Part shown: in pieces, positions 27,240 to 41,385 of the stretch
How the letters are laid out: the number at the start of each line of letters is the position of its first letter
Position numbering within the stretch: position 1 is the first letter of the stretch
Made by a program: the position numbers and the translations under genes
Assembly (NCBI GenBank): GCA_019694655.1
Contig: JAIBBN010000001.1
Location: 372,001 to 436,000 of the forward strand
From: Leptospirales bacterium
GTDB taxonomy: Bacteria > Spirochaetota > Leptospiria > Leptospirales > Leptonemataceae
Length of the DNA: 64,000 nucleotides
Reading direction: 5' to 3'
Notes under the pieces: model-generated
What the model saw: only the letters and a program-made list of their open reading frames with translations
Databases searched by the model: none
Told to the model about the DNA's origin: nothing

Positions 27240-28991
27240 TCAGGGAGGCCCGCCGGAGCTTCTGCTCTTGCGGGCCTTTTTGTTGGCTTTTCCAGGGCCG
27301 ACCTTGCTGGCCTGCGCCGTCACAGCGGGGCCATCCGCCAGCAGATCAGCAAGCATACTGGCCAGTCCGGAGGCCCGTTCCGTTTGGCGATCCACAGACT
27401 GGACAAAGGTTGAGATAGGGCCAAACAGAATTGCCCGTCGGCTGGCGCGAGTCAGGCCAGTATAGAAAAGCTCGCGTGTGAATAATGGCAAGTCCGGTCG
27501 ATCCGGCGCTACAATCAGCACGGTTTCATATTCGCTTCCCTGACTCTTGTGCACGGTGATAGCGAAGGCTGCTTCAAAGCGCGGAAGCATATGCAGCGGA
27601 AGGCTCTTCAGTTCCGTTCCGCGTCGAAACCATCCGCGTATGCGCCCCTGCGAATCGGCAAAGAGAACGCCGCTATCGCCGTTAAAAAGGCCAAGTTCAT
27701 AACTGTTTTCCAGGATCAAGATCGGACAACCGGAGAACGCCGGCGATGGAAGGGCTTGCGCGTAACCGGCCTGACGCAAACTTTCCAGGGCAAAGCGATT
27801 GAGATTGTCCACTCCGGCCGGTCCGCTGCGTGTAACGGCCAGCAGTCGAAATTGATCCAGCGTCTGCAGCGCCTCATCCGGAGACGTCGCCTTCAATGCA
27901 GGTCCGTAACCATCGACGATCCAGCGCCGCAATTCGGAGCTATCAGAGCCTGCACAGAGCAAATCATCGAACATTTCTGGCAAATCAAGGCAGCGCTGCA
28001 GCAGCGCCTGGCACTGCTGGCGCTGGCCCTGGCGGACCAGCGAGGAGAGTTGCGCTATCTGACTTTGATCAGAAAATCGAAAGTTCTGCGATAGCAAGGC
28101 CACAGCGCCCTGCATCGCCGGAGCGCGACAGAGTTCAGCAAAAGCGGCGCCCGCTTCCACCGATGCCAGTTGGTCGCGGTCGCCGAAGAAGGCCAGCGCC
28201 GTGCTGGAGGGCAGGGCGCGCAGCAAGGCGGCCAGCATCTCCAGATCCAGCATCGATGCCTCGTCAATCAAGCAGAGTTCGATCGGCGCCTTTCGCTGCT
28301 CATTGTAGTGAAAGCTGCCATCCGGACGCGCGCCGAGGAAACGGTGGACGGTCTGGGCAATGGGCGACGAAGCAGGTGCGACGGCGACAAAGGGGACCAG
28401 CGATTCATTCAGGCGCGCCGCTGCCTTTCCGGTGGGCGCAAGTAGCGCACAGCGCGCTTGCGGCTGTCGCTGCTTTCTGGCTGCCAGAATTGCTGCTGCG
28501 GTTCGCGTCTTGCCGGCGCCCGGACCGCCGCTTACCGCCAGAATTGGAGAAGAAAGCGAACGTTGCACCGCAGCATTCTGTTCGCTGCTCAGTTGAATTC
28601 CTCCAGCATGTTCAGGCGGGAGCACGGCAATATGTGGCGCTGTGGCTTGTTGCAGCCGTTGCGCCAGCGCCTGGGCAACGCTTCGTTCCTGAAGAAAATG
28701 TCTGCGAAAATAGAGCATTTGCCGGTAGTACAGCAAGGGAGCGGGCAATGGTTCGTTTTGCAGCTCTGCCAGCGCTGGCGCCTCCGCCCAGGCCGCAGAC
28801 GCGGCCAGCATCGAAAGTCGCAATTGCCTGGCATGATCCATCGGCAGGCAGACATTGCCCTGATCCATCGCCCGGCCAAGCTCCGCACAAATTTCCATCA
28901 GGAAAGCAGCGCCTTCGGCATCGCCGACGCTTTCCTGATGCAGACGCGCGCAGAGCGACGCCATTTGATCAGCAAGCGCTTCTGGCTTCAT
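27240..28991 (-). CDS. recD: Exodeoxyribonuclease V subunit RecD
   Basis: 583 residues. The Walker A motif GGPGAGKT (155-162), the helicase motif APTGKAAARLNES and the C-terminal VHKSQGSEYETV and LTRASRRAI motifs identify the 5'-3' SF1B helicase subunit of RecBCD. The ATG overlaps the recB stop by 4 bases (ATGA), showing translational coupling. It is the last gene of the recC-recB-recD operon. Its C-terminal tail is basic (GPGKANKKARKSRSS) and holds the thiolase terminator sequence. Confidence 0.93.
   Translation of the reverse strand: MKPEALADQMASLCARLHQESVGDAEGAAFLMEICAELGRAMDQGNVCLPMDHARQLRLSMLAASAAWAEAPALAELQNEPLPAPLLYYRQMLYFRRHFLQERSVAQALAQRLQQATAPHIAVLPPEHAGGIQLSSEQNAAVQRSLSSPILAVSGGPGAGKTRTAAAILAARKQRQPQARCALLAPTGKAAARLNESLVPFVAVAPASSPIAQTVHRFLGARPDGSFHYNEQRKAPIELCLIDEASMLDLEMLAALLRALPSSTALAFFGDRDQLASVEAGAAFAELCRAPAMQGAVALLSQNFRFSDQSQIAQLSSLVRQGQRQQCQALLQRCLDLPEMFDDLLCAGSDSSELRRWIVDGYGPALKATSPDEALQTLDQFRLLAVTRSGPAGVDNLNRFALESLRQAGYAQALPSPAFSGCPILILENSYELGLFNGDSGVLFADSQGRIRGWFRRGTELKSLPLHMLPRFEAAFAITVHKSQGSEYETVLIVAPDRPDLPLFTRELFYTGLTRASRRAILFGPISTFVQSVDRQTERASGLASMLADLLADGPAVTAQASKVGPGKANKKARKSRSSGGPP
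27246..27283 (+). terminator. Rho-independent terminator after the thiolase gene, inside recD
   Basis: The 8-bp stem AGGCCCGC/GCGGGCCT (27246-27253 with 27270-27277) has a 16-base loop and is followed by a T run on the plus strand. It ends plus-strand transcription from the thiolase gene. The same bases encode the last residues of recD on the minus strand, so it is a terminator within coding sequence. Confidence 0.75.
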
Positions 28992-35200: not shown

Positions 35201-35430
35201 TCCAATCCGGAAAGAATGCATTGTACGAGACGATTGGGAAACAGGTACTGAATGCCAAAGGTCGCGCCGTCCGAACCGGCGAGGCAGAGATTGAGGTAGC
35301 GTTCCATGCCGTGCGCCTGGATTAGAATGGCTGGCGGATCAAGCGGATCGCGGCCTTCGGCGCTCAGGCAGGACTTCAGTTCCGCTGAAAGCCGCGCCGC
35401 CGAATTACTGAGGACTAGATGAAGAGCCAG
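32266..35430 (-). CDS. recC: Exodeoxyribonuclease V subunit RecC
   Basis: About 1054 residues if translation begins at the CTG at 35430, where the product starts ALHLVLSNS and matches the length of the RecC N-terminus (E. coli: 7 residues before SNR). A GAGGG lies 7 bases upstream. The nearest standard in-frame start codon is a TTG about 250 bases further upstream, deep inside the divergent lipoprotein gene. RecC motifs seen include LFPNRLVQCIL, QAHGMERYLN, WLLQRFQED, FPRGRRTISFHLLQR and LLFMEALLAA. RecC has an inactive helicase fold that reads Chi. First gene of recC-recB-recD. Confidence 0.9.
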   Translation of the reverse strand: MALHLVLSNSAARLSAELKSCLSAEGRDPLDPPAILIQAHGMERYLNLCLAGSDGATFGIQYLFPNRLVQCILSGLEQVHFPFDKEAARFALQALLLEDAAEAASGALADYPGDGPDQARRRDQLAGALAEVFDQYLSHRPDWMLADRAAVLASQPPIEDLDWLWQRRLWEKLIQRYPEFALPDRLQQWQALHRAGQHSAPFTGNLYCFAISYLPEIHLRILVELAQRRDVHLFTLSPGLPDFAAQSGAIRLRDFLQRLSREKFSSWRWLDDAQKRPLSPLHQIAAAMEGFAITPHGEGDPLHLSRRVQLHSCHTPLREVEALQLWLLQRFQEDSSLRASDVLVMAPDINRYAPALQAVFRKAGSASMPISVADRTAAPEREGLELLLAALQLPGERYRAGLLTGLLQHPLLAQQFGYRPELVDEYVAAAHIRWGADRNFRQSRRPANQHPGSWREGLDRLLLAWSTEQAREGSPPLNTENIRELAAMAAAVDAILDSTRGMEELLSAATWTERLLQMIEALLPAYPQRLAIERAITRFKTMALRLQPSLPLSVDCISAYLRRFAVESAAGKGFMSGGIAACTMMPMRNVPFRIVCLLGMDESSFPRGRRTISFHLLQRYPRAGDPSRRLEDRLLFMEALLAAGDWLYLSYCGQDAAGAKLLRGPSTLIDELSTALGANDGQTLLDRQTLHPLYAWDRRYFISGRLPGDSLLPRGTSPRLLEAARSVTVAGPRRSAQIVPGNSARKTGANLVGPLNLGQLLDALRNPAARYLRNIGLRLSPADRLSEKPGSCREWEQQNESPWRADPLQQYALRGSILHWLISGKSVQDAVEDALIDAALPAGWSGRQIAQQLCAEAQHLLAAAPSGMRATVLKLSRHIGDALLEDELPVLEGDGRLLLLNHGAINARRIVESCLIYSAAGCEGDSYFFSRESEASMLRIRGQAGEDLLRFAVQFYHGLEQEFSPLFLKSSLRYYQSIQMEGADRRSAQQKALACYLPSFTGAPGEGQTPELRLLFPDLAPLAESSPWLPQFEELALRFWSLLSQTTTLPELWK

Positions 35431-36363
35431 AACGCAACCCTCGCTAAAATCATCGCAGACTTTCCAGGCCGGGCGAGCATAGCTCGCGTCTGCGACACCC
35501 GGCCGCGCTACAAGCTGCGCAAGCTGAGCGTTACGGTCTTGTTGCTGTGCGGCCTGCTGGCCGGCAACTGTTCCCGGGTTGTTGTAAGGACCGCCTATCG
35601 TCAGGCCGATACCTTGCTCTATTATCGTCTGGACCGGGTCTTCGCATTTGATGATCAGCAGGAGCAATGGGTCCGGCGGCAAATCCAGGCGCACTACCGG
35701 TGGCATCGAACGACCCAGCTGCCAGCCTACAGCGCATTCTTGCGCGACCTTCGCGGCCGAGTGCAACGCGGTCTACAGGAAGCGGATCTTGACTGGGCGC
35801 AACAGCAAATGACGGGCTTTCGCAACGCGCTGATGATTCGAATCTACCCGGATGCTCGCTTGCTGCTGCTGGGACTTGGCGACCGGCAGCTGCAAGACCT
35901 TCCCGATCGCCTGGCAGACTACAACGAAGAGCTGGCGCAAAAGGCGGCATTGTCGCCGGAAGAACGCACTGAACGCAGCGCAAAGGAGACCGTAGAATCT
36001 GTAGAGGAATGGTTGGGCAGTCTGCAGCAGGACCAGAAAGGCGAGCTTGGTCAGATCGCCCGGGCCATGCCCGATGAGACGCCGCTGCGATTGCAAATGA
36101 ATCGCGAACGACAGGCCCAGTTGCTTGCAGCGTTGCAATCTCCAGAGCGGGGCGCCCGGACCGACGCCTTGCTTCGCGCCTGGTTGCTGCATGCTGAAGC
36201 CAGCCGCCCCAATTACTACCGGCTGGCTGTCCTCCGCTGGCGGCGCAGCTTCAAGGATCTGGCGCTGAAAATCGACCAAATGATGACCGCCGAACAGCGT
36301 CAGTATTTCAGTGCGCGGCTGGGCGAATGGATTGAAGATCTGGAGCAGTTGAGTCGCGGCTGA
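35419..36363 (+). CDS. Lipoprotein of the DUF6279 type
   Basis: 314 residues. The ATG at 35419 has a good ribosome-binding site (GAGG, 5-8 bases upstream). A 51-residue leader ends in LLAGNC, a loose spirochaete lipobox. The rest resembles DUF6279 lipoproteins: YRQADTLLYYRLDRVF, an acidic FDDQQEQWVRRQI, and HRTTQLPAYSAFLRDL. Family recall only; function unknown. Its first ~12 bases are shared with the 5' end of recC on the opposite strand. Confidence 0.7.
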   Translation: MKSQNATLAKIIADFPGRASIARVCDTRPRYKLRKLSVTVLLLCGLLAGNCSRVVVRTAYRQADTLLYYRLDRVFAFDDQQEQWVRRQIQAHYRWHRTTQLPAYSAFLRDLRGRVQRGLQEADLDWAQQQMTGFRNALMIRIYPDARLLLLGLGDRQLQDLPDRLADYNEELAQKAALSPEERTERSAKETVESVEEWLGSLQQDQKGELGQIARAMPDETPLRLQMNRERQAQLLAALQSPERGARTDALLRAWLLHAEASRPNYYRLAVLRWRRSFKDLALKIDQMMTAEQRQYFSARLGEWIEDLEQLSRG

Positions 36364-36417: not shown

Positions 36418-37008
36418 CTAAAAGATCCGCGGCCCTGCTTTGATCTGGTTGTACACGCGGCGCACGCCTTCGCTCTCCTGGGCCGCCAGCACAGCGCGAA
36501 CGCGCTGTGTGTCGGCGGCGACGCGTCCAATCAGATACACTTCGCCATCGTAGACAACAATCTTGATATTCTGACCCTTCAGATCGCTTTCTGCCGCCAG
36601 CGATTCGCTGATCTGTTGCCGTAAGTTGCGATCGGCATCGGCGCTAGTATAGCGACGATCGCCGAGGCGCATCCGATTGATGACGCTCCAGACTCCGGTG
36701 GATCGGCGAGCGTAGTCCTCAAAGCGCCGCAAAGCTGACTCCGAGGCAGCCCGGCCAATCAGATAGACTTCGCCTTCGTCGGTAAGCACTTGAACCGAGG
36801 AGGCATCGCTCTCCTGGTCCTGTGCAATGCGAGCGAAGACGCTTGCTGTAATTGCGGCATCGTCAAGTTCGGAGCGAAGCAGGCGCGAGGCAGCGCACTG
36901 GGCAGCAAGCAGCGTCAGCACGATGAGCAACCCGAAGCGGGCCGGGCGTTCGTCGAACCGACCGCCCAGGTCGACCTTTCCGGAGCTGCAGGCTGTCCTT
37001 GTTTCCAT
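36418..37008 (-). CDS. BON-domain lipoprotein (OsmY-like)
   Basis: 196 residues from the ATG at 37008; the frame is open further upstream but only low-quality residues would be added. The signal peptide ends in LAAQC (C38). Two BON-type repeats follow, each with the VxLxGRV/A pattern (for example GEVYLIGRAASESALRR, then GEVYLIGRVAADTQRV). BON domains bind phospholipid or outer-membrane surfaces and are stress-linked in OsmY. Function is inferred. It is convergent with the DUF6279 gene. Confidence 0.75.
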   Translation of the reverse strand: METRTACSSGKVDLGGRFDERPARFGLLIVLTLLAAQCAASRLLRSELDDAAITASVFARIAQDQESDASSVQVLTDEGEVYLIGRAASESALRRFEDYARRSTGVWSVINRMRLGDRRYTSADADRNLRQQISESLAAESDLKGQNIKIVVYDGEVYLIGRVAADTQRVRAVLAAQESEGVRRVYNQIKAGPRIF

Positions 37009-37261
37009 CGCGGCCGACCCTGACGGGCACGCATTGGCCCGGCAGGAGAAGCTGAGACCCCTGCCGCGCTGCAGCGCAAGGGAAAAGGCTCCAGAGATTT
37101 CAGGTTTCTTAAAATTCCGAAATGAACTATATTGATGCATGGATGAAACAAAAGCCATCTATGAAGACTAGAAATGACTCAAAATAGTTCAATTCTTGGC
37201 CTCAGTCCGATTGCCGAAGCGGCTTCCGGTCAAGCGCGGGCCTGAACGCCCTCTGGCCGAT

Positions 37262-37282
37262 GGGAAATACGCTCGATTTCCC
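37262..37282 (+). other. Perfect 7-bp stem-loop in the gene-free stretch
   Basis: GGGAAAT (37262-37268) pairs with ATTTCCC (37276-37282) around a 7-base loop. It lies about 250 bases upstream of the terminator and is part of the possible small RNA or leader described for this stretch. Confidence 0.4.
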
Positions 37283-37529
37283 CCGTCAGCGATCCGTTTC
37301 CCCTGCTTCAGATATTTTTCTTTCAAAAACCGTTCTCCGGGTACGCAAGCTGCAACAAGGCAGCACAGGCAAGAATCAGAAGGGGCAGAGCAGTAAGCGC
37401 AGACATGGGTCCGTTATGCAGAAGACCGCAAACAGGCCTTGCGCATGCAACATGTGTTATCTGAGTTTTGAGCGTTCAAAAAAAAGGAAGAGAGAAAAAA
37501 ATGCGAACGGCGGCCGAAAAGGTCGGAAG

Positions 37530-37560
37530 AGCCCCCGGATGCCGGGGGCTTTTTTGTTTT
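37530..37560 (+). terminator. Strong Rho-independent terminator upstream of the NarL-type regulator
   Basis: A 9-bp GC-rich stem (AGCCCCCGG with CCGGGGGCT, 37530-37538 and 37542-37550) is followed by a T run (37550-37560). It would end a plus-strand transcript, although no plus-strand gene is seen between 37009 and here; it lies 114 bases before the regulator ATG. Confidence 0.85.
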
Positions 37561-37673
37561 TCGTCCATCCGGGTTTATGATCTCGGCTTTTGCCGGGAGG
37601 CGCTGCAGCGCAGCGGAACTCGATTGGGCTATCTCGGCGCGGACGCGCTGGCGAGCATGCGGGAGGCCAATCG

Positions 37674-38336
37674 ATGAAGAAGGTGCGTCTTTTTCTGGTC
37701 GATGATCACGTCATCGTACGTGAGGGCCTGCGTCATATTCTAGGCCGGCAGAGTGATCTTGAAATTGTGGGCGAGGCTGGCGACGGACAAAGCGCCTGCG
37801 AACAGATTCAGGAAATCAAGCCTGACCTGGTTATCATGGACATCTCCATGCCGCGGATGAGCGGGCTGGAAGCGGCCCGTCGGTTGCGGCGACAGAACCG
37901 GCAGCTCAAGATCATCATGCTGACGCGGCACGACAGCAACGAATTCATCGATCAGCTGCGCAGCCAGCATATCGAGGGCTACGTACTCAAAGACGACGCA
38001 GGCGATGATCTATTGCAGGCCATTCAAGCAATTCGACAGGGCGGGACCTATCTCAGTCCGCGCGTAGCCGGCCGCCTTACCGAACGTTCGAGTCCTTCGC
38101 TCGAAGCCAGCAATCGTAGCGGCTCGCTGGCGCTGCTTACGGATCGCGAGTGCGAGGTTCTGAAGTTGATCGCTCAGGGAAAAAGCAACGAGGAAGCGGC
38201 CCGGGCATTGCAGATTTCACCGCGTACCGCAAAAGTCCACCGCGCCAACATTATGAAGAAGCTGGATTTTCACAAGGCTGCGGACCTGGTTAAGTTTGCA
38301 GTCAAAGCGGGAATGGTAGAAACAGGCGCTCGCTGA
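37674..38336 (+). CDS. NarL/FixJ-family response regulator
   Basis: 220 residues from the ATG at 37674, with GGGAGG upstream. The N-terminal receiver has VDDH (acidic pocket), the phospho-acceptor Asp in VIMDISMP and a Lys in YVLKDDAG. The C-terminal LuxR-type helix-turn-helix reads LTDRECEVLKLIAQGKSNEEAARALQISPRTAKVHRANI. It binds DNA when phosphorylated. No histidine kinase is next to it; a terminator-bearing gene-free stretch precedes it. Confidence 0.93.
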   Translation: MKKVRLFLVDDHVIVREGLRHILGRQSDLEIVGEAGDGQSACEQIQEIKPDLVIMDISMPRMSGLEAARRLRRQNRQLKIIMLTRHDSNEFIDQLRSQHIEGYVLKDDAGDDLLQAIQAIRQGGTYLSPRVAGRLTERSSPSLEASNRSGSLALLTDRECEVLKLIAQGKSNEEAARALQISPRTAKVHRANIMKKLDFHKAADLVKFAVKAGMVETGAR

Positions 38337-38380
38337 TTGGCCGGCGCCGCGCCTGCCGCGGCCGCTGCCAGCTTTGCAAT

Positions 38381-41314
38381 TCAGTGCGCCTCGTCCCAGT
38401 TATCGCCAAATTTCCAATCCACGCGCAGCGGAGTCCGCAGCTCAGCGGCGCGCTCCATTCGCTGCAGGGCGATGTCACGGATCATCTCGGCTTCATCCGG
38501 TGTAACATCGAAAAGCAGCTCATCGTGCACCTGCAATATCATCCGGCTTTGCACGCCGGCTTTGCGCATATCCTCATGAATCTGCAGCATCGCCATCTTG
38601 ATGATATCGGCGCTGGCGCCTTGAATGGGCGTGTTGATTGCGGTGCGAGCCGCCCCTTCGCGGCGAAATCGATTGGAGGATTGGATCTCTGGAATCTGTC
38701 GAATGCGACCGGAAAGGGTCTGGACATAGCCATGTTTTTCGGCAAAGGCCACTGTCTCGTCCATGTAGCGCCGCACGCCCGGGTACTGCTCAAAGAAGCG
38801 ATCGATGTAGCCGCGCGCCTCCTCCCGGGCAACTCCCAGATTTCGCGAAAGGCCAAATTCGGTGACGCCGTAGATGATGGAGAAATTGACGGCCTTGGCC
38901 CGGGCGCGCATATCTGCGGTCACATCCCTTTCCGCGACATCAAAAAGCGACGCGGCGGTGCGCGCATGAACATCCAGGTCTTTCTTGGTGAATGCTTCAA
39001 TCAGCGACGGATCTTCGGAATAATGCGCCATGATGCGCAATTCGATCTGACTGTAGTCCAGGCTCAGCAATCGATTGCCGCGCGCGGGGACAAATCCGCG
39101 ACGTATGGCGCGACCGGCCTCCTCGCGAATCGGGATGTTTTGTAGATTCGGATCTACAGAAGACAGACGTCCGGTGGCGGCGATTGTCTGGTTGAAGCTG
39201 GTATGGATGCGTCCAGTCTGCGGATGAATTTGCTCTGGCAAAGCTTCAATATAGGTGCCCAGCAGCTTTGCCAGTTTACGACGGTCGAGGATCCAGTCGA
39301 CCATCGGATGAACGCCGCTCAGCTCCTCCAGGACGCTCTGGTCGGTTGAGAAGCCCGTTTTCGTCTTTTTGCCATGCGGCAGCTTGAGATCTTCAAACAG
39401 CAGCTTCTGCAATTCGCGAGTTGAATTCAGGTTCAGTTGGTAGCCAGCTTCTTTGAAGATGCGCTTTTCCAGAGCGGCGATCTCCCTGTGGTACTCTTTG
39501 GCCAATTGCGCAAAGTACTGCGGATCGATGGCTACGCCGGTCATTTCCATGGAGGCCAGCACAGGAATCAGCGGCGTCTCGATCTGTTCATTGACGGGCC
39601 GTAAGCCTTTGCTGTCAATCTGCGGGGCCAGGCAATGATGCAGGCGCAGAGTGATGTCCGCATCCTCGCAAGCATAGTCCGCCACCTTCTCTGGCGGCGC
39701 CTGATCCAATGTGATCTTGTTGCGGCCGCTTCCGGCGATGTCTTCGTACTTGATCGTGTTGTATGCCAGTTGATCAAGCGCAAGATCGTCCATATTGTTG
39801 CGGCGAACATTTGGATTAAGCAAATAGGAAGCGATCATAGTATCAAAGGAGATGCCCGGGATGGTAAATCCATGACGCTTCAAAACAATATAGTCGTACT
39901 TTATATTCTGTCCGACGATGCGCAAGCCCGGCGCGCTCAGCAGGCGGCCGAGGTCCTTCCAGAGGTCTTCGGGTTTCAAACCCTGGCTGGCAAAGGGCGT
40001 CCCGGCGGGCGGGGCGTTGATGTACCAAGCCTGGCCAGGGAGCGCAGACAGAGAAATGCCGACCAGCCGGGCGCGCATCGGATCGGCGCTATCGGTCTCG
40101 GTGTCAATGGCCAGAATTCCGCTTTGCTCGATTGCGGTCTGTAGCTCGGTCAGACAGCGCTGCCACTGTGCGCTATCACTGACTAGCTGGTAGCGAAGGG
40201 CGCCTGCCGCATGGGCGCTGGCAAAATCGGAGAAAGAATCAAGCGCTGCCGGGGCGCCGGCCAAATCCTCAGTCGCCGCGACCTCTGCTGCTGGAGGCGG
40301 ATCAAAGAGGCCGCCTTCTGCGTCGGGCTTTTTCTTGCTCTTTCTGGGCCGCGCGCCGGCTGCTGCAGGGGCGCCGGTTGTCGGCGCAGCAGCAGCATTT
40401 GCGCTGGCCGCGCGCCGATCAGCGGCTTTGCGCAATTCAAGATAGATTGCGTTGTAGCCCTCCTGGCGAAAGAGCTGGATGCGCTCCGCCGCCGTGATGT
40501 CCGGGGTCGCCAGCTTTGCTTCATCCAGTTCATCAATCTGGGCAATGCTTGTGCGGATCGTCGCCAGGTCGCGCGACAGAAACGCCAGGTCGCGCGCCTC
40601 GCTCAACTTCTGTTGCAGGGACTTGCTTTCGACCTCCGTCACATGCTCGTAGACTTCTTCGAGAGTCGGATAGGCCTGTAATAGTTTTGCCGCCGTCTTG
40701 GCGCCGACGCCCTTGACGCCTGGAATATTATCCGAGGCGTCGCCCACCAGCCCCATGTAATCCGGAATCTGAGCGACACTGACGCCAATTTCCTGCTGCA
40801 CCCATTGCGGAGTTATTTCTGTAAATTCCGTTACGCCCTTTGCGCCGCGCAACATGGTGACGTTGTCGTTGAGTAATTGATAGCAATCCTTGTCCCCGGT
40901 AATCAAGAGCACCCGGCGTTTCTTACCAAAGCGATGAGCAAGTGCGCCAATCAAATCGTCCGCTTCATAGCCGCTTTGCTGCAAATTGACAAAGCCGGCG
41001 CGCTGGCACAATTCCTTGATTTCGTCGATTTGCGGACGCAGATCGTCCGGCATCGGCTTACGCGTGGCTTTGTATTCTGAGTAGAGATCGTCGCGCAAGG
41101 TCTTGCCCGGCGCGTCCCAGACTACGGCGCAATGTTCCGGTTGATAGTCCAGCAGCAGTTTCACAAACATCCGCAAGAAGCCGAAGATCGCATGCACCGG
41201 CTGTCCGGTGCCCGGGTGTGTGAGATTTTGACCCTGCAATGCGTAGTAAGCGCGGTAGGCCATGGCGTGCGCATCAATGATGAGAAGTCCGGCGGAGCGA
41301 CTGACGGAGGACAC
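38381..41314 (-). CDS. polA: DNA polymerase I
   Basis: 977 residues, GTG start. The N-terminal 5'-3' nuclease (IIDAHAMAYRAYYAL, ITGDKDCYQLL) is followed by an Ala/Pro/Lys-rich linker (about 300-345). The 3'-5' exonuclease keeps its metal residues: DTETD, NIKYDYIVLKRHGF and YACEDADI. The polymerase shows YSQIELRIMAHYS, RAKAVNFSIIYGV and MILQVHDELLFDV. PolA fills gaps and removes RNA primers and has proofreading here. It is convergent with the response regulator and divergent from the STAS gene. Confidence 0.97.
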   Translation of the reverse strand: MSSVSRSAGLLIIDAHAMAYRAYYALQGQNLTHPGTGQPVHAIFGFLRMFVKLLLDYQPEHCAVVWDAPGKTLRDDLYSEYKATRKPMPDDLRPQIDEIKELCQRAGFVNLQQSGYEADDLIGALAHRFGKKRRVLLITGDKDCYQLLNDNVTMLRGAKGVTEFTEITPQWVQQEIGVSVAQIPDYMGLVGDASDNIPGVKGVGAKTAAKLLQAYPTLEEVYEHVTEVESKSLQQKLSEARDLAFLSRDLATIRTSIAQIDELDEAKLATPDITAAERIQLFRQEGYNAIYLELRKAADRRAASANAAAAPTTGAPAAAGARPRKSKKKPDAEGGLFDPPPAAEVAATEDLAGAPAALDSFSDFASAHAAGALRYQLVSDSAQWQRCLTELQTAIEQSGILAIDTETDSADPMRARLVGISLSALPGQAWYINAPPAGTPFASQGLKPEDLWKDLGRLLSAPGLRIVGQNIKYDYIVLKRHGFTIPGISFDTMIASYLLNPNVRRNNMDDLALDQLAYNTIKYEDIAGSGRNKITLDQAPPEKVADYACEDADITLRLHHCLAPQIDSKGLRPVNEQIETPLIPVLASMEMTGVAIDPQYFAQLAKEYHREIAALEKRIFKEAGYQLNLNSTRELQKLLFEDLKLPHGKKTKTGFSTDQSVLEELSGVHPMVDWILDRRKLAKLLGTYIEALPEQIHPQTGRIHTSFNQTIAATGRLSSVDPNLQNIPIREEAGRAIRRGFVPARGNRLLSLDYSQIELRIMAHYSEDPSLIEAFTKKDLDVHARTAASLFDVAERDVTADMRARAKAVNFSIIYGVTEFGLSRNLGVAREEARGYIDRFFEQYPGVRRYMDETVAFAEKHGYVQTLSGRIRQIPEIQSSNRFRREGAARTAINTPIQGASADIIKMAMLQIHEDMRKAGVQSRMILQVHDELLFDVTPDEAEMIRDIALQRMERAAELRTPLRVDWKFGDNWDEAH

Positions 41315-41357: not shown

Positions 41358-41385
41358 AAAAAGGGGACCATCAAGGCCCCTTTTT
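41358..41385. terminator. Strong bidirectional terminator-like hairpin between divergent genes
   Basis: AAAAAGGGG (41358-41366) pairs with CCCCTTTTT (41377-41385); a further CC/GG pair with a bulged A tightens the loop. It has a T run on the plus strand and one on the minus strand. It lies between polA (minus) and the STAS gene (plus), with no gene ending there, so it is likely a leader or attenuator, not an ordinary end signal. Confidence 0.65.

Follow-up and report, generated by a model that had tools for sequence, protein, structure and literature searches.

An orphan intrinsic terminator ahead of a NarL-type response regulator gene in a Leptospirales bacterium, and the transcripts that it may end

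What does a strong intrinsic terminator end when no gene on its strand stops beside it? This question is raised by a 665-nt gene-free gap (37009-37673) in a 64,000-nt stretch of a Leptospirales genome (the whole stretch analyzed is hereafter called the window), which separates a minus-strand gene for a BON-domain protein from a plus-strand gene for a response regulator. The following features define the gap and its terminator:

36418-37008, minus strand: gene for a BON-domain protein, a probable lipoprotein, forming the divergent left flank of the gap (ATG at 37008-37006)
37674-38336, plus strand: gene for a NarL-type response regulator with receiver and GerE domains, forming the right flank (ATG at 37674, Pfam match)
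37526-37561, plus strand: strong intrinsic terminator with a T6GT5 tail (terminator scans, fold and shuffles)

The first-pass annotation had given the same bounds for the gap, and they agree exactly with the flanking ATGs at 37008 (minus strand) and 37674 (plus strand). Its description of the right-hand neighbor as a NarL-type regulator is supported by the receiver and GerE domains seen in the plus-strand gene that starts at 37674, ahead of which an SD sequence GGGAGG can be read. The BON-domain gene was recovered with an E-value of 3.8e-31 against the Pfam BON model when scanned with a longer N-terminus, and the reading of this N-terminus suggests that the product is probably a lipoprotein. 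Downstream of the regulator, and convergent to it, lies a frame that we take from its sequence to be polA; this frame has a counterpart in 22 of 22 family genomes.

The terminator and its rarity in this genome

A strong plus-strand terminator had been proposed at 37530-37560, and our scans and folds locate it at 37526-37561. It consists of a 13-bp stem (37526-37538 with 37542-37554), a 3-nt loop and the tail TTTTTTGTTTTT, with a folding energy of about -22 kcal/mol, and the stem is still paired throughout its length. A cut-off of at least 10 perfect pairs misses the stem-loop 37526-37554 because of a G-U pair in the stem, and 9 pairs were therefore used: one stem of 9 Watson-Crick pairs with 7 or more T among the 10 nt that follow is present in the gap, such a signal arises in 3 of 5000 first-order shuffles, and at this strictness both strands of the window are otherwise free of it. 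In a looser scan of 36500-38500, one terminator-like site was detected versus 2.2 expected in shuffles. What exceeds chance is therefore how strict the site is, not that some terminator-like match occurs. That no plus-strand gene ends at the terminator had also been stated correctly, with the nearest one upstream, a DUF6279 gene (35419-36363), ending 1162 nt before it, beyond the opposite-strand BON gene.

We surveyed 864 kb of the same genome, comprising the window and 40 sampled 20-kb stretches, in which 732 frames were called as genes by a script. The strict finder returned 15 candidates, and nine of them are strong and compact, their stems reaching -16 kcal/mol or below. A recognizable gene ends at eight of the nine: seven sit 16-28 nt past a protein gene of the same strand (two of them, at window position 27246 and at L133:3814, were labeled as 'inside' since a predicted frame overlaps them as well), and the eighth lies past the 23S end of an rRNA operon that was recognized by reading (L119). 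The ninth is the gap terminator. The weaker candidates comprise five within genes and one orphan (-13.8 kcal/mol) at 41358-41385. Hence, a terminator of such strength normally marks a gene end in this genome. Given that strong terminators are rare away from gene ends here, a real plus-strand transcript end at 37526-37561 is likely; the terminator is genuine and very probably ends transcription. As a terminator, the orphan does not look to be of an unusual kind.

A candidate non-coding transcription unit

Our tentative first choice, to which we would assign a probability of roughly 0.4, is that the terminator ends its own short plus-strand non-coding transcription unit, which begins within the gap, while the regulator is transcribed separately. 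Such a transcript would start inside the gap, perhaps near 37140 at an AT-rich inverted repeat, and would stop at 37554-37561, with the regulator gene being transcribed from beyond the terminator. The RNA might act in trans, possibly with Hfq by means of an A-rich stretch and its U-rich tail. The elements of the gap that bear on this reading are:

37140-37561, plus strand: putative non-coding transcript of up to about 420 nt, with an uncertain 5' end (terminator and lack of coding signal)
37119-37195, no strand assigned: AT-rich inverted repeat with arms 37119-37140 and 37174-37195, a candidate operator pair or divergent promoter region
37106-37133, plus strand: weak candidate promoter TTCTTA-16-TATATT, with a predicted start at about 37140, overlapping the first repeat arm (sigma-70 matrix)
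37554-37581, plus strand: weak candidate promoter TTGTTT-16-TATGAT for the regulator, with a start at about 37588 and its -35 element in the T tract of the terminator (sigma-70 matrix)
37262-37282, plus strand: stem-loop named in the first-pass annotation, with a perfect 7-bp stem and a 7-nt loop, at chance level
37478-37500, plus strand: A-rich purine tract ahead of the terminator (sequence)
37511-37525, plus strand: small hairpin CGGCC-GAAAA-GGUCG (fold)

We place this non-coding unit first because the terminator stem is intact while no lost gene is traceable nearby; the persistence of the stem, with no remnant of a lost gene recognizable beside it, suggests that the terminator is under selection. 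Codon scores were trained on the genes of the window, whose 58-codon pieces average 0.27 per codon, with other open frames averaging -0.07. The frames before the terminator score as non-coding, at -0.14 (frame starting at 37260) and -0.27 (frame starting at 37196) per codon, by which a small protein in the gap before the terminator was ruled out. Two marks of an sRNA gene are present, namely a strong terminator belonging to no protein gene and the absence of coding signal before it.

Against these stand the lack of DNA relatives and of an Rfam family, a body with no structure beyond that of shuffles and a possible length of about 420 nt, all of which weaken the non-coding RNA reading. The RNA 37140-37524 is no more structured than its shuffles (z -0.30, with 34 of 100 shuffles folding as well). 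Searches of the gap against Rfam, at both gathering and permissive thresholds, recovered no family, the matches being terminator-like or due to chance. The segment 37160-37680 has no DNA relatives in 60 other genomes, none of which is of the same genus, beyond one 25-nt match; this match (in G054) falls inside an open frame there and was taken as chance. No match to the gap DNA was found in plasmids and phages. An identity with 6S RNA was rejected, the 6S RNA of this genome being located elsewhere.

The inverted repeat, which was absent from the first-pass annotation, matches at 18 of 22 nt between its arms, with 0 of 300 shuffles as good, and its core motif has no perfect copy in the genome other than those in the two arms. 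From its sequence it may represent an operator pair, and a repeat beyond chance with a unique core is consistent with a regulated start site. The same element is also a candidate operator for the divergent BON gene and for any plus-strand start. The two candidate promoters rank 19 and 26 among about 128,000 positions scored with a textbook sigma-70 matrix. They are given little weight, because this matrix is not validated for the organism and its sites are hardly enriched in the intergenic DNA of the window, with 4 of its 40 best sites being intergenic versus an intergenic share of 7.7% (the 37140 site was counted as genic, since the longest BON frame was taken). A stricter consensus scan found no promoter in 36500-38500. 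The perfect stem-loop that had been claimed at 37262-37282 does exist and adds nothing: perfect stems of the 7-bp class average 0.45 per shuffled gap versus 4 in the gap, and by our own reckoning these 4 are three nested slices of the terminator together with this stem-loop. The second small hairpin that had been claimed is real, with arms at 37511-37515 and 37521-37525.

Two Hfq genes that pass the Pfam cut-off are present in the genome (L155, G000:C4:290250-290435, and L156, G000:C3:273280-273459), which make an Hfq-type sRNA possible without showing one. The A-rich tract at 37478-37500 resembles the kind that we take to be bound by Hfq. As in intergenic trans-acting sRNAs of the Hfq class, the candidate is intergenic, possesses its own strong terminator with a U-rich tail, is preceded there by an A-rich stretch and a small hairpin, and occurs in a genome with Hfq. 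It differs from them in that no conserved seed, structured body or Rfam match is seen in the gap, and in its possible length of about 420 nt. In a study of Leptospira interrogans, the predicted sRNAs average about 100 nt, the vast majority of them have no following intrinsic terminator, most are intergenic and the species is described as having an Hfq-like protein (PMC5243855). The gap candidate shares the intergenic location and the presence of Hfq with those sRNAs, and departs from them in its possible length of about 420 nt and its strong terminator (PMC5243855). Should transcription be borne out, the unit would add a candidate regulatory RNA to a bacterium with few intrinsic terminators and two Hfq genes.

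The locus in relatives and the case for a possible lost gene

The first-pass annotation had allowed the terminator only two roles, as the end of a small RNA or of an attenuated leader of the regulator gene. The premise stood, in that the terminator is significant and ends no recognizable gene. The dichotomy proved too narrow, because 5 of 9 orthologous loci carry a strong terminator that ends a lipoprotein gene, which is absent from the genome of the window, and a leftover or insulating terminator fits as well. In the latter case a plus-strand gene that once lay between BON and the regulator would have been lost, and its terminator would now only block read-through. This is our second choice, somewhat less probable than the non-coding unit. 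The lost gene could have been either the lipoprotein gene seen at the regulator loci of relatives or a lipase-like gene seen beside BON in G011.

Orthologues of the regulator were found at 45-57% identity in relatives, and nine loci (L033-L041) were taken as orthologous, with L042 (41% identity) left out as a probable paralogue; the regulator search of the genome contigs gave 22 distant loci, none of which was used. In 8 of the 9 orthologous loci the regulator follows a kinase-like frame at a short distance or with an overlap, which in L034, L035 and L036 is exactly ATGA, and this regular pairing favors a loss in the window. Upstream of the kinase lies the lipoprotein gene. In G006 this gene matches DUF4842 (6e-26) and the kinase matches HisKA_3 and HATPase_c; Pfam tests of these identities were confined to G006, and the other loci were judged by likeness. 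A strong terminator lies between the lipoprotein gene and the kinase in 5 of the 9 loci, drawn from three genera (L036, L037, L039, L040 and L041), about 13-30 nt past the stop of the upstream gene and ahead of the kinase, and is absent in L033, L034, L035 and L038. Its position just before the kinase in the five loci implies that kinase and regulator owe their expression to read-through or to a promoter that lies within the terminator tail or directly past it; a search for a conserved promoter between terminator and kinase in these five relatives gave weak sites only.

The gap thus resembles these loci in carrying a strong terminator at the same relative place, just before the transcription unit of the regulator, as would be expected of a leftover. 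It is unlike them in that the window has neither the lipoprotein gene nor the kinase and in that the letters of the terminator differ, and the general dissimilarity in sequence between the terminators of different loci counts against a leftover. So does G011 (L033), which has the closest regulator and shows no terminator before it; there, too, no kinase is adjacent. The lipoprotein gene has no match in the genome of the window, while the same query matches 5 of 5 relatives, one of them its own source, and the best matches to a relative's kinase are 27-33% identical and located elsewhere, the first and third adjoining other regulators. From these comparisons we conclude that the regulator is orphaned at its locus, with no adjacent kinase or lipoprotein gene, and that a partner kinase elsewhere is possible.

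The other side of the gap offers a second candidate. Relatives of the BON gene are found in 3 of 21 other family genomes. G011 repeats the convergent arrangement of the window, with a DUF6279 homologue facing BON, and the gene divergent from BON there is a 273-codon frame with no Pfam match, which we take to be lipase-like. A same-strand terminator (-13.6 kcal/mol) follows about 200 nt past this frame, and then a DUF4785 gene. Homologues of the lipase-like and DUF4785 genes adjoin elsewhere in the genome of the window (L133), with a strong terminator past the region of the lipase-like gene. That the G011 gene ends at a terminator, and that its homologue at L133 has its own, again speaks for a leftover; on both sides of the gap, relatives have a plus-strand gene ending at a terminator. 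The lipase-like and DUF4785 genes adjoin in both genomes (L133:1748-3840 and L158:5421-7795), in swapped order, with a terminator after the lipase-like gene in each.

A further point concerns the segment between the terminator and the regulator, which includes the end of an open frame:

37501-37677, plus strand: 58-codon open frame across the terminator, whose TGA overlaps the regulator ATG (ATGA); part of the frame 37468-37677

Overall this frame scores 0.062 per codon, with the first 20 codons, through the terminator, at -0.244 and the last 38, after it, at 0.222. From this composition, part of an older coding sequence may survive in the last 38 codons; this coding-like stretch and the same ATGA overlap as between kinase and regulator in L034-L036 fit a lost gene. 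A search of 21 other family genomes with the 58-codon frame gave no convincing relative, the best match having an E-value of 0.012 and two internal stops, and the 69-codon frame 37468-37677 has no Pfam match.

The gap itself speaks against the leftover explanation, since in it no remnant of the lipoprotein, kinase, lipase-like or neighboring gene rises above shuffles: 24 of 40 and 15 of 40 shuffles gave equally good traces of the lipoprotein gene and the kinase, and 60 of 60 and 45 of 60 did so for the lipase-like gene and its neighbor. Moreover, an unused terminator would be expected to decay along with its gene. If the terminator is nonetheless a leftover, the locus would be a small case of a response regulator outliving its kinase and operon. 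Either way, an orphan terminator is by itself no proof of an sRNA.

Leader and read-through alternatives

An attenuated leader, the other half of the earlier dichotomy, would have an RNA started in the gap either stop at the terminator or read into the regulator, as set by translation of the 58-codon frame. We place this third and consider it unlikely. It draws on the frame 37501-37677, which runs across the terminator and into the regulator ATG, and on one predicted structure:

37620-37674, plus strand: possible hairpin TCGATTGG/CCAATCGA over the regulator start, dependent on the assumed transcript ends

In this model the start of the regulator could be covered by pairing of TCGATTGG (37620-37627) with CCAATCGA (37667-37674). 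The accessibility of this start is predicted to be the lowest among 62 frames of the window, yet among 268 genes there are 7 whose start is no more accessible. Whether the hairpin forms varies with the transcript that is assumed. The predicted probability of the helix is 0.80-0.91 for a transcript from 37588 and stays at or below 0.13 in 21 of 24 combinations with a start no later than 37562; the exceptions start at 37480 and 37501 and have the shorter 3' end (0.74 and 0.32). As a leader structure the start-covering hairpin is suggestive only. Furthermore, the frame scores as non-coding before and across the terminator (-0.244), and neither the list of inverted repeats nor the fold contains a competing antiterminator upstream, although attenuation by a ribosome could do without one; the terminator 5' arm has a single 8-bp complement, which lies downstream of the terminator. 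No equivalent is seen upstream of the regulator orthologues in relatives. In Salmonella, a small ORF ahead of a Mg2+ transporter gene is described as exerting translation-dependent control by an upstream frame (PMC8092293). The gap is like that case in having an upstream frame near a possibly sequestered start, and unlike it in that the coding status of the gap frame is doubtful and a full terminator lies inside the frame (PMC8092293).

Fourth, and quite improbable, is that the terminator closes an extended 3' tail on the DUF6279 gene (35419-36363), the RNA of which would pass through the BON gene in antisense: this is the nearest upstream plus-strand gene, no strong terminator intervenes between it and 37526, and the BON and DUF6279 homologues are convergent neighbors in G011 too, but a distance of 1162 nt compares with 16-28 nt for 7 of 7 other strong terminators after protein genes. 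Least probable, and in our judgment very unlikely, is a two-lock leader gained after kinase loss, in which the 58-codon frame, holding the terminator and the start-covering hairpin and ending in ATGA, would have to be translated to admit first RNA polymerase and then ribosomes to the regulator, thereby replacing the translational coupling of kinase and regulator.

We also considered orphan terminators as a class of insulators, and rejected it, with one other case in hand (41358-41385) and the polA/STAS gap lacking a terminator in the stretches from G011, G006, G013 and G018. This second plus-strand orphan terminator (-13.8 kcal/mol) lies between polA on the minus strand and, on the plus strand, a downstream gene that is presumably of the STAS type. 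Its T tract directly abuts a TTGACA sequence.
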